Shown here piece by piece: positions 7,066 through 39,627 of a stretch of 64,000 nt of DNA; the stretch's first letter is position 1, and each line of letters begins with the position of its first letter. The stretch comes from Rhabdaerophilum sp. SD176 (GTDB lineage: Bacteria; Pseudomonadota; Alphaproteobacteria; Rhizobiales; Beijerinckiaceae): the NCBI RefSeq assembly GCF_030143245.1, contig NZ_JARJNS010000001.1:186001-250000 (forward strand). Reading direction: 5' to 3'. Under the pieces are notes generated by a model. The model saw only the letters and a program-made list of their open reading frames with translations. It made no database searches and was not told the origin of the DNA. The translations under genes and the position numbers were made by a program.

Positions 7066-8499
7066 TCACGCCGCCGCTTCGGACAGGGAAGGCGCGAGCG
7101 CATGGTCCGCCATCCAGGCTGCAAGGGCAGCTTTGGCCCGCGAAGTGATCATGCGCTTCTTGGCCACTGCCTTGTCCTTGCCGCGCAGCCTTTTGCCATT
7201 CTCGTCACGCGGGGCAGCCTCGAACTGTGGAAAGAGGCCGAAATTGATGTTCATCGGCTGGTATGATTTCGGGCCTGTATCGATGGTCTCGATATGGCCG
7301 CCGGTAATGTGGTTGAGCAGCGCGCCGAGCGCCGTCTCGGGCGGAGGCACCGCCAGCGCGCGACCGAGCCTTTCTGAACTGGCCAGCAAACCCGCCAGAA
7401 GCCCAATCGCCGCGCTCTCGACATAGCCCTCGCACCCGGTGATCTGCCCCGCAAAGCGCAGGCGCGGCTGGGCCTTCAGGCGCAGAACGGAATCAAGGTG
7501 GCGGGGCGAGTTGAGATAGGTGTTGCGGTGGATGCCGCCGAGCCGGGCGAATTCTGCCTGTTCGAGGCCGGGAATCATCCGGAAGATCGTCGATTGCGGC
7601 CCATATTTCAGCTTCGTCTGGAAACCGACCATGTTGTAGAGCGTGCCGAGCTTGTTGTCCTGCCGGAGTTGGACCACGGCATAGGGCTTCACGGTCGGAT
7701 CATGCGGGTTCGTCAGTCCGACCGGCTTCATCGGCCCGTGCCGGAGCGTTTCGACACCGCGTTCGGCCATCACCTCGATCGGAAGGCAGCCGTCAAAATA
7801 CGGCGTATCCTTCTCCCACGCGCGGAATTCGGCTTTTTCCCCGGCAATGAGGGCGGCAACAAAGGCCTCGTACTGCGCCTTGTCGAGGGGGCAATTGATA
7901 TAATCTGCCCCGGTACCGCCGGGACCTGCCTTGTCATAGCGGGACTGGAACCAGGCCACATCCATGTTGATCGACTCGCGATGGACGATCGGCGCGATCG
8001 CATCGAAAAAGGCCAGCGAATCCTCGCCGGTCAGCGAACGGATCGCCTCCGCCAATGCCGGGGATGTCAGCGGTCCCGTTGCCAGGATCACGCTGTCCCA
8101 TTCCTCCGGGGGAAGGCCCGCAACCTCGTTCCGGTCGATCATGATGAGCGGATGGGCCTCGAGCCGGGCCGTGACATCACCCGAGAACGCATCCCGATCC
8201 ACCGCCAGCGCGGAGCCGGCTGGCACCTGGTGCCGGTCAGCCGCGTGCATGATCAGCGAGCCCAGCCGGCGCATCTCGTCATGGATCAGCCCGACGGCAT
8301 TGAGATCCGAATCATCGGACCGGAAGGAATTGGAACAGACCAGTTCGGCCAGCCCTTCCGACTTGTGGGCCTCGGTCATGCGGCGTGGCCGCATTTCATG
8401 AAGCACGACGGGAACACCGGCCTGCGCGATCTGCCAAGCCGCCTCGCTGCCGGCCAGGCCACCGCCGACAACATGGATCGGGGAAAGGTTTCGGTTCAT
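7066..8499 (-). CDS. trmFO: Methylenetetrahydrofolate--tRNA-(uracil-5-)-methyltransferase TrmFO
   Basis: TrmFO makes ribothymidine at position 54 of tRNA with 5,10-methylene-THF as carbon donor and FADH2 as reductant. The 477-residue protein starts with the FAD-binding [13 protein letters not shown] motif, has the redox Cys in [11 protein letters not shown] (about residue 55), a second Cys in [14 protein letters not shown], and the C-terminal [16 protein letters not shown] and [10 protein letters not shown] motifs. The length is normal. It is distinct from the SAM-dependent TrmA of enterobacteria and ties the window's methylene-THF metabolism (folD, sarcosine oxidase) to tRNA modification. 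Confidence 0.96.
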
Positions 8500-8544
8500 G
8501 CCCGGTCAATAGTCGTTTGCGCGGCCGAAGGCGAGGGGGCGCAT

Positions 8545-8569
8545 AAAAAAAGGCCCGCCGAAGCGGGCC
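8545..8569 (-). terminator. Rho-independent terminator with UUCG tetraloop
   Basis: On the minus strand GGCCCGC and GCGGGCC close a UUCG tetraloop and are followed by seven T. It sits between the DUF1127 locus and trmFO and ends transcripts coming from the right. Confidence 0.85.
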
Positions 8570-8672
8570 ATTCGCACGTAAGGGCCGGGAGTTAGCCGAT
8601 ACGCGTAGGGACAACACGCGAGGTCAGGCGCCAGGTGGGAGAGGTCTGCCGCCTGACCCGCGTGAAGCAGGA
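8545..8672 (-). ncRNA. Candidate small RNA downstream of DUF1127 gene (Cuckoo/CcsR-like)
   Basis: After the first hairpin that follows the DUF1127 gene, the minus strand carries a very stable hairpin: CACGCG (8615-8620) and GGTCAGGCG (8622-8630) pair with CGCGTG and CGCCTGACC (8650-8664), leaving one bulged A. The 19-nt loop is pyrimidine-rich and reads CCTCTCCCACC on the minus strand. A strong terminator ends the unit at 8545. In Rhodobacter the CcsR RNAs, members of the Cuckoo family, are cut from the 3' region of a DUF1127 mRNA and expose CUCCUCCC-like loops. The arrangement here matches, though the loop motif is not exact. A short open frame through the hairpin has no good start codon. 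Confidence 0.5.
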
Positions 8673-8674
8673 AA

Positions 8675-8715
8675 ACGGGCAGGCCGGGACGGGGAGAACA
8701 TCCGGGCCTGCCCGT
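8675..8715 (-). terminator. First hairpin after DUF1127 stop (terminator or processed sRNA hairpin)
   Basis: An 11-bp perfect stem (8675-8685 with 8705-8715) begins five bases after the DUF1127 stop codon. On the minus strand it is followed by TTTTCC and its loop contains TTCTCCCCG. It could be a terminator, a processed sRNA hairpin of the Cuckoo type, or both. Confidence 0.65.
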
Positions 8716-8719
8716 TGTC

Positions 8720-8875
8720 TCAGGCGCCGACTGCCTGGCGGGCCGCCTGTTCGATGCTGCCGCGGTTCAGGCCGATATCGGCGAGCTCGCGGTCGGAAAG
8801 CTGCGAGAGGATCTCGACATTCCGACGGAAACGCAGCCACGACTGGATGCGGGCGATAATGTGGGTCAGGATCAT
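8720..8875 (-). CDS. DUF1127 small protein (YjiS-like)
   Basis: The 51-residue product is almost all DUF1127 domain, with the typical LSDRELADIGLNRGSIEQA ending. DUF1127 proteins are small basic proteins. In alphaproteobacteria, members affect phosphate and carbon metabolism or RNA turnover, and CcaF1 of Rhodobacter binds RNA. I chose the ATG at 8875 because GGAGAAG lies five bases upstream and the domain begins there; an upstream in-frame ATG at 8956 would add 27 unlike residues. The gene has its own promoter and is followed by a row of hairpins that look like a small-RNA locus. Confidence 0.88.
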   Translation of the reverse strand: MILTHIIARIQSWLRFRRNVEILSQLSDRELADIGLNRGSIEQAARQAVGA

Positions 8876-8959
8876 GGGTCTTCTCCAGAATTGAATGTCG
8901 CGACCCGCCGACTGCCGCTGCATCACCGTGAGGGACGCTGCCGTCGTCTTGGGCATGGC

Positions 8960-8987
8960 TGCTTATGTGCAGTGCAAAAAAGGCAAA
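8960..8987 (-). promoter_or_regulatory. Putative promoter of the DUF1127 gene
   Basis: On the minus strand, TTTGCC (8982-8987) and TAAGCA (8960-8965) are separated by 16 bases. Transcription would begin near 8953 and leave a leader of about 78 bases. Confidence 0.4.
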
Positions 8988-9023
8988 GTCTAGGCAGAGC
9001 TGGCGCCTCAGCGGCCACCAGAT

Positions 9024-9038
9024 ATGCGGATTACGCAT
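9024..9038. promoter_or_regulatory. Dyad of LysR-type (T-N11-A) upstream of the DUF1127 promoter
   Basis: ATGCG-GATTA-CGCAT is a perfect 15-base dyad containing T-N11-A, the LysR-type consensus shape. Its centre lies about 78 bases before the predicted transcription start. That is slightly further than the usual -65 activator site of LysR-type regulators, so the fit is approximate. Confidence 0.4.
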
Positions 9039-9084
9039 GCCTGTTTGATAAAACTTTAATGATTGCGCGAGAACCGCCTGGGCC

Positions 9085-9710
9085 TCAGCTGGACGGCGCA
9101 ATGAAAGGCTGCGTGATTTCCCGAAAGACTTCCGTGGCTTCGAGCCGTGCAGCGAGCGCGGCCAGCCGCGGATGGGCCTCGAGCCGGCCGAGATCCGGAT
9201 GCGCCTCGCCCAGATGGCGCAGGATCGACACGGCCGTAATGTCCGGTTGGCTCATCCTGTCGTCGCTCCAGAACGGACCAGGGCGCGTGGCATAGGCCGC
9301 CTCGAGCCAGGCGAGACCGTCGCGGATCTGGCGCTGGCACCGTTCGACATAGAAGGCGGAAGGGGCCTCGTGCAGGCGCAACTCGTAGAACAGGGCCACG
9401 GCCTTGTCGCCGACACCCCCGGCAACGGCGCAGATGCGCATCGCCTCCGCCCGTACCAGCCCGCCGGCGGGCAACAGCCGGCGCTCCGGCTCGACCAGCC
9501 CGTCGAGATGGTCGAGGATTGCCTGGCTGTCGACAAGGGCCGTGCCATCCTCCAGCACCAGGGTCGGCACACGAAGCAGCGGATTATACGCGCGGATACG
9601 GTCGGCATCGCCGAAGACCGACCAGGGCGCATGCTCGAACGGGATCCCGTAGAGGCGCATCGTGATGGCGACCCGGCGGGTGAAGGGCGAATCGAATTGC
9701 CCGATCAGGA

Positions 9711-9714
<4 letters not shown>
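9085..9714 (-). CDS. Glutathione S-transferase family protein
   Basis: The 209-residue protein has the GST layout: an N-terminal thioredoxin fold with the [15 protein letters not shown] start and the [10 protein letters not shown] and DSQAILDHL glutathione-binding motifs, followed by a helical C-terminal domain with [12 protein letters not shown]. The catalytic residue is probably a Ser or Tyr near SPF, but the class is uncertain. The ATG overlaps the uvrA stop by four bases, so translation is probably coupled to uvrA and the gene may share its SOS control. The substrate cannot be told from sequence. Confidence 0.88.
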
Positions 9715-12662
<2,948 letters not shown>

Positions 12663-12793
12663 GACAAACCGGCTGAGGAGAGGGCTGTTCCTGCTCAAGT
12701 AAGGCGGGGGGCAGGGGGCTTCAACCGGGAATCGACATTCCCGACCGCGCTTTCCTGTAAAACAACCCTTGCACAGGCCGAGACATCCGTCTA

Positions 12794-19771: not shown

Positions 19772-19777
19772 GGCTTT

Positions 19778-19868
19778 ATCCGAGGGGCGTCGCATCGGCG
19801 GCTGAGATTGGGGGAATGAACCCAAGCACCCTTAGAACCTGATCCGGGTCATGCCGGCGAAGGGACGG
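19778..19868 (+). ncRNA. TPP riboswitch (THI element) of thiC
   Basis: The core THI-box blocks are all present in order: GAGGGGCG, GGCTGAGA, ACCCTTAGAACCTGATC and the closing CCGGCGAAGGGA. The element binds thiamine pyrophosphate and normally shuts off thiC. The remaining leader (19869-20026) holds several GC-rich hairpins, including GGCCGAACGGCC and a CGCGGC-TCT-GCCGCG hairpin directly before the AAGGAAGG ribosome binding site. No T-run follows, so control of translation is more likely than of transcription. The 307 bases between gyrA and thiC contain nothing else I recognise. Confidence 0.95.
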
Positions 19869-19906
19869 GTCTGGTGCTGCAACACCGCTTTTCCTTTCCG
19901 TCGTGA

Positions 19907-39551: not shown

Positions 39552-39627
39552 TGGTGAGCTCGGTGGGATTCGAACCCACGACCCCATGATTAAAAGTCAC
39601 GTGCTCTACCGACTGAGCTACGAGCTC
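39552..39627 (-). tRNA. tRNA-Lys (anticodon TTT)
   Basis: The minus strand folds as a full 76-base tRNA with CCA encoded: acceptor GAGCTCG with CGAGCTC, D arm GCTCAGTCGGTAGAGC, anticodon loop CTTTTAA with anticodon TTT, and T arm GTGGGTTCGAATCCCAC. Confidence 0.97.

Follow-up and report, generated by a model that had tools for sequence, protein, structure and literature searches.

A probable cuckoo-type small-RNA module with a drifted seed in the 3′ untranslated region of a DUF1127 mRNA from Rhabdaerophilum

The mRNA of a small DUF1127 gene in a 64,000-nucleotide stretch of Rhabdaerophilum sp. SD176 (the window) probably carries a cuckoo-type small-RNA module in its 3′ untranslated region (3′UTR), which would yield a small RNA (sRNA) that masks ribosome-binding sites; we put the probability of this reading at roughly 0.7. 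It is favored because the region folds with a z score of -8.89, CUCCC occurs only in unpaired loops, 13 of 15 loci of the genus share the hairpin on changing stems, and the second hairpin, the third hairpin, and the terminator are conserved, and also because matches to the Rfam ar14 family fall at the same slot in relatives, a second DUF1127 gene is followed by UUCUCCCC hairpins, and in one relative (G006) the hairpin stays with DUF1127. We judge the RNA element to be real and conserved and to belong in kind with the cuckoo/CcsR RNAs, its seed having probably drifted; by analogy it is likely to have a function. Its features are as follows.

9711-12698, minus strand: uvrA-like gene, upstream of the GST-like gene
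9085-9714, minus strand: GST-like gene, upstream neighbor of DUF1127
9024-9038, minus strand: palindrome ATGCGTAATCCGCAT with a T-N11-A box, a possible LysR-type, LsrB/VtlR-like site for a putative regulator
8961-8996, minus strand: conserved upstream block TGCCTAGACTTTGCCTTTTTTGCACTGCACATAAGC, a candidate core promoter or operator in an alignment of 15 genus loci
8720-8875, minus strand: DUF1127 gene, 51 amino acids (MILTHIIARIQSW...; PF06568, E 1.7e-13, 50.5 bits, cut-off 23.3)
8719-8671, minus strand: hairpin H1, loop UUCUCCC, CUCCC at 8696-8692 (fold and accessibility)
8664-8615, minus strand: hairpin H2, loop ACCUCUCCCAC, CUCCC at 8641-8637 (fold and accessibility)
8605-8575, minus strand: hairpin H3, loop AACUCCC, CUCCC at 8591-8587 (fold and accessibility)
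8545-8573, minus strand: intrinsic terminator, stem 8569-8552 (GGCCCGC-UUCG-GCGGGCC), seven T at 8551-8545
7066-8499, minus strand: trmFO (PF01134 GIDA, E 2e-97; the name TrmFO is our reading)

Along the minus strand, the uvrA-like gene is followed by the GST-like gene, DUF1127, the hairpins, and trmFO, with DUF1127 as the first gene of the proposed transcript and trmFO a neighbor that we do not count as part of the RNA. H1 starts directly after the DUF1127 stop codon (TGA, 8722-8720), and the gene and the hairpins lie on the same strand and share the terminator. The initial annotation had described three strong minus-strand hairpins behind this stop; its coordinates for H1, H2, and the terminator were right, and it had missed H3, a weaker hairpin placed between H2 and the terminator. 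The loops it gave for the first two hairpins returned in our fold, as did its terminator with a UUCG loop and seven T. The 177-nt hairpin region folded at -101.5 kcal/mol (z -8.89), and none of 200 dinucleotide shuffles did as well. The transcript was modeled as 8957-8543 (415 nt, with a guessed 5′ end); CUCCC occurs in it three times, each time in a hairpin loop with a probability of being unpaired of at least 0.998.

The same genome was scanned for hairpins with CUCCC or CCUCC inside a loop of 6-14 nt, using both strands of a 464-kb sample (the window and 20 further stretches of 20 kb). The sample contained 56 such hairpins, the DUF1127 locus included, and 31 terminators by our strict rule. 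Two of these terminators had a motif hairpin in or before them, and both calls were at the DUF1127 locus, one being H1, which has four T after it, and the other the real terminator. A CTCCC-then-T-run pattern was not enriched in the genome (71 matches versus 91 for the reversed pattern; 65 versus 93); the pattern alone proves nothing, and placement in a hairpin loop does.

The DUF1127 protein was matched in 41 of 61 genomes, among them 15 of the 17 of the genus; the two genus members without a match, G004 and G010, are 83% and 78% complete. A CUCCC/CCUCC-loop hairpin was found at 13 of these 15 genus loci (17 hairpins in total), as compared with a mean of 0.38 loci and a maximum of 2 in 60 rounds of shuffling. 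Both loci missed by the scan retain the motif on inspection by eye, one as a hairpin with a bulged stem (L015) and the other as GCUCUCCCG on a stem of only 4 bp (L009). The comparison of loops across related genomes that the initial annotation had proposed bore out its expectation, as the loop core was kept over differing stems: no stem sequence is common to the loci, and such strongly varying stems with persistent loops are a mark of cuckoo/ar14 RNAs. One genus member (L011) has the loop UCUCCUCCC, and by eye H3 resembles the single CUCUCCC hairpin of locus L012. At a further genus locus (L013, in G007) the motif hairpin downstream of DUF1127 is followed by at least four tandem copies of the terminator GGCCCGCCGGAAACGGCGGGCCTTTTTT.

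The five closest species (G000, which is the genome of the window, G011, G012, G013, and G015) were compared column by column. H3 and the terminator were identical throughout (65/65 columns) and H2 was nearly so (49/52 invariant), while H1 was invariant in 25/49 columns and its loop was lost, having degenerated, in G011. The comparison regions gave 141/153 invariant columns for the DUF1127 coding part, 100/129 for the start of the trmFO coding region, and 29/44 for the spacer after the terminator. MAFFT aligned the stems out of register, and covariation within the five species did not exceed that of shuffles (3 pairs changed on both sides versus 2.0).

Beyond the genus, 4 of 14 other family loci had a motif hairpin, three of them clear (L021, L023, and L026) and one doubtful (L030), which is weak by itself given a shuffle mean of 0.52 and a maximum of 5. 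Among Afipia, Bradyrhizobium, and close kin the hairpin was found at none of 72 DUF1127 loci (shuffle mean 1.10), these loci coming from the best 80 of 169 confirmed stretches. The situation that the initial annotation had named as fatal to its proposal, a retained gene without hairpins, does occur further out, at these 72 loci, where trmFO still follows. One locus of the same order (L031), L039, L040, and six probable duplicates of genus genomes already counted (L033-L038) were left out of these counts; L039 has the loops CUCCUCCC and UCCUCCC, and L040 has no motif loops.

Because the 72 distant loci, drawn from those best 80 of 169, do without them, the CUCCC hairpins are not needed for the DUF1127 gene as such. 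The same loci, together with the GC-rich stems and the terminator, could be taken to mean that the hairpins are a mere strong 3′ end, which terminates the short DUF1127 mRNA and shields it against exonucleases but does not affect other mRNAs. We regard this as unlikely: any loop sequence would do for a shield, whereas the core of the loop is retained at 13 of 15 loci of the genus while the stems change, and it is seen again downstream of amtB and of the second DUF1127 gene (see below).

Another possible role involves the downstream gene. Within a 1.5-kb flank trmFO follows DUF1127 at 14 of 15 genus loci, in most relatives the hairpins closely precede trmFO on its own strand, and in G019 (L235) ar14-like hairpins precede trmFO with no DUF1127 detected, all of which would suit control of trmFO read-through by attenuation, or a mobile palindromic repeat. 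Either reading is nevertheless very improbable. By eye, no CUCCC-loop hairpin was seen in the 300 nt preceding four trmFO genes that lack a neighboring DUF1127 (L230 in G018, L232 in G024, L234 in G025, and L229 in G030); in G006 the hairpin stays behind DUF1127 though trmFO is ~1.6 kb away; and the stems have no sequence in common from locus to locus, whereas copies of a mobile repeat would. A mere terminator, an attenuator of trmFO, and a mobile palindromic repeat were thus all rejected as the main reading. The hairpins usually accompany DUF1127 and may persist after the protein gene is lost.

With the sRNA module as the preferred reading, we infer the following course for its transcription, cutting, seed pairing, and targets. 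Transcription would start upstream of DUF1127, pass through H1, H2, and H3, and stop at the UUCG terminator. A cut by RNase E would then release the 3′ part as an sRNA of ~175 nt or as smaller pieces with hairpins; in Rhodobacter, RNase E takes part in excising the CcsR RNAs from the ccaF1 3′UTR (PMC8625941, PMC7866481). Each loop would present an unpaired CUCCC seed (UUCUCCC in H1, CUCUCCCAC in H2, and AACUCCC in H3), and this seed would pair with GGGAG-type ribosome-binding sites and so block translation of several mRNAs. Within the genus, the seed at the DUF1127 locus would have drifted from CCUCCUCCC towards (U)CUCCC.

Candidate targets were sought among ribosome-binding sites. The Shine-Dalgarno (SD) complement of the variant seed was not clearly enriched, GGGAGA being present before 3 genes versus 2.1 expected among 311 crude gene starts and at 1 of 171 tight-operon starts, likewise crude. 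Silencing of DUF1127 by its own loops was not supported, the mean longest match over 22 loci being 4.95 as compared with 4.86 when permuted, with 1405 of 5000 permutations as good. A GGAGGC lies just before the possible ATG of ntrB at 6 of 16 genus loci (G002, G003, G006, G007, G009, and G010); ntrB as a target, as for NfeR1, was not supported for the species of the window, with no such site evident in its clade and an uncertain start.

The lack of tracking between loop and own ribosome-binding site across species, seen in the 1405 permutations, also speaks against the idea that the hairpins are protein-binding sites, perhaps for the DUF1127 protein itself, which act in cis on their own mRNA in autoregulation or maturation. 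The hairpins are linked to DUF1127 genes, and in Rhodobacter the DUF1127 protein CcaF1 binds RNA and promotes CcsR maturation (PMC10253847, PMC12501420). For the Salmonella DUF1127 protein YjiS, on the other hand, no RNA binding was found, as told in PMC12501420, and the same kind of loop stands behind amtB, which is not a DUF1127 gene. We consider binding of this sort improbable, and somewhat more so than the exonuclease shield.

The region upstream of DUF1127 was inspected for conservation. The conserved upstream block contains TTGC[AG][CG]TGCA at 14 of 15 genus loci. In the upstream alignment the strict T-N11-A pattern of the palindrome was present at 8 of the 15 loci of the genus and at 4 of 8 from the rest of the family. 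The window has TGCG-N5-CGCA at 9037-9025, also a T-N11-A box, as compared with TGCA-N6-GCAT, the T-N11-A box upstream of the NfeR1 promoter at which LsrB activates that RNA (PMC10746234). In Brucella three DUF1127 genes are under positive control by VtlR (PMC12595884), as is a small-protein gene in Agrobacterium (PMC7486931), and by this analogy the palindrome is possibly an LsrB/VtlR site. The sequence TTGCACTGCANA was found twice in the genome, at 8966-8977 of the window, within the conserved block, and at L312 (G000:C11:562721-562732), where it precedes a gene that encodes a DUF4212 protein and has a transporter-like frame behind it. The two sites possibly share a regulator.

Hairpins of like kind were found elsewhere in the genome and genus. 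The ammonium transporter gene of G000 (PF00909, E 8.8e-114) has a UUCUCCUCCC-loop hairpin in its 3′UTR just before the terminator (L189, G000:C20:77000-79600). A comparison of the genus amtB loci (L197-L212) gave a motif hairpin at 14 of 16 (shuffle mean 0.18), whereas among 14 amtB loci outside the genus (13 of the family and 1 of the order) the scan flagged 3, with a single one (L219) looking clear. The second DUF1127 gene of G000 (L002, L258; G000:C18:353824-354090, minus strand) is followed by two long-loop hairpins with UUCUCCCC, which the scan missed owing to loop length, and by a terminator. By eye, these hairpins are kept at 5 of 16 genus loci (L258-L262), 4 (L269-L272) have UCUCCC in the terminator loop, and 7 have neither. 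With the amtB and second-DUF1127 hairpins, which are of like kind and may be homologous, the genome has several copies, as is usual for cuckoo/ar14 RNAs.

Further hosts appeared in other searches. The stronger ar14 matches of the genus are mostly away from the DUF1127 locus, behind amtB (L121 in G005 and L125 in G011), and an ar14-like hairpin lies behind a pair of small genes, one of them without a Pfam match, at L120, L122, L123, and L126. In these four genus members the loop of the terminator itself is UUCCUCCCA or similar. In G018 an ar14 match follows a phasin gene (L129). A CUCCC-loop hairpin in the 3′UTR of an aldehyde dehydrogenase gene (PF00171; L277, G000:C23) is present at 5 of 17 genus loci and is a weak lead. 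A 3′UTR hairpin with a UCUCCC-like loop was also seen at the end of a gene for a DctP-type binding protein in G000 (L190).

One may speculate that the genus maintains a network of 3′UTR hairpin cassettes in unrelated mRNAs (the two DUF1127 genes, amtB, the small-protein operon in some members, and possibly the aldehyde dehydrogenase gene), in which each host signal would release an anti-SD RNA of one common kind. There would be two classes of seed, CUCCUCCC (amtB) and (U)CUCCC (DUF1127), possibly for different sets of mRNAs, with nitrogen status entering via amtB. We hold this extension to be doubtful, and far less secure than the sRNA module at the DUF1127 locus.

The results extend the DUF1127-linked cuckoo-type RNAs to the Rhabdaerophilum lineage and suggest that drift is possible in a loop described as ultraconserved, with its CUCCC core retained. 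The loops UCUCCUCCC, UCCUCCC, CUCUCCC, and AACUCCC form a natural series for asking which seed bases matter. The ar14 RNA NfeR1 silences ntrBC in Sinorhizobium (PMC10746234), and the conserved hairpin in the amtB 3′UTR links the same RNA design to ammonium uptake. Recruitment of the same anti-SD cassette by the 3′UTRs of unrelated genes becomes testable. Neither the loop variant of the genus nor the amtB cassette was found in literature searches, which is weak evidence, as coverage was partial and most subscription papers fell outside it.

The relationship to ar14 was assessed with Rfam models. The covariance search that the initial annotation had called for gave no ar14 match in the window, and matches across the DUF1127 3′ region at 2 of 14 relatives' loci, L023 (E 2.6e-5) and L026 (E 4.4e-4), both below the curated cut-off. 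A search of 61 genomes used stricter filters, by which weak matches are lost; an ar14 match at E ≤ 1 turned up in 34 genomes, exceeding the cut-off in two, and the genome of the window had none. The match adjoins a DUF1127 gene on the same strand in 8 of these 34 (G023, G032, G035, G043, G046, G048, G051, and G059). A relaxed Rfam search of 8400-9100 returned 17 matches below the curated scores, which were taken as chance. The only matches at gathering score in the window are a TPP riboswitch (19773-19882, plus strand) and a tRNA (39555-39627, minus strand). Because ar14 matches occupy the slot in relatives and none is present in the genome of the window, the DUF1127 3′ region is within the wider family a slot for cuckoo RNAs, of which the window probably has a drifted version.

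Cuckoo RNAs consist of two to four adjacent hairpins, and three motif hairpins plus a terminator stand here. The cuckoo/alpha-r14 family (Rfam RF02344, ar14; NfeR1 of Sinorhizobium meliloti; the SmelA075 and SmelA099 models) has the same adjacent hairpins of variable stem, CU-rich anti-SD-like loop, and end terminator (PMC3927594, PMC10746234), as well as several cassettes per genome and the ar14 matches at the DUF1127 slot of two family members. PMC3927594 gives models with CCUCCUCCC loops that have three or four hairpins; PMC10746234 has three hairpins, and there the loops of ar14 act redundantly as anti-SD seeds on translation starts. The locus differs in its loops, which as the initial annotation had noted are a variant (UUCUCCC, CUCUCCC, and AACUCCC are seen here, and none of H1-H3 has CCUCCUCCC), and in the lack of an ar14 match in the window. 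NfeR1 is moreover a stand-alone transcript, whereas the hairpins here lie behind a protein gene.

AbcR1 and AbcR2 (alpha-r15) likewise have CU-rich partial anti-SD motifs in unpaired regions (PMC7143759), and in relatives AbcR RNAs and DUF1127-type genes are both under LsrB/VtlR control; they are, however, stand-alone sRNA genes of other structure, and the window has no match to them at gathering score. A similar arrangement is that of CcsR1-4 with ccaF1 of Rhodobacter sphaeroides (the CIN1 locus type), where a small DUF1127 gene is likewise followed by same-strand tandem hairpins and a terminator (PMC10253847). The locus type is already known, since short DUF1127 genes with CcsR-like sRNAs are frequent in alphaproteobacteria (PMC10253847). 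Four homologous RNAs are present in Rhodobacter as compared with three motif hairpins here, the loop motif is another, and the next gene here is trmFO; the RpoHI/HII promoter and RNase E processing are features of the Rhodobacter system. The likeness to CcsR and cuckoo RNAs claimed in the initial annotation holds for the motif hairpins of the genus and for the slot shared with ar14 in two family members, and fails as strict membership. We conclude that the element of the window, a variant by the strict motif test, probably works like, and descends from, RNAs of the cuckoo/ar14/CcsR kind.
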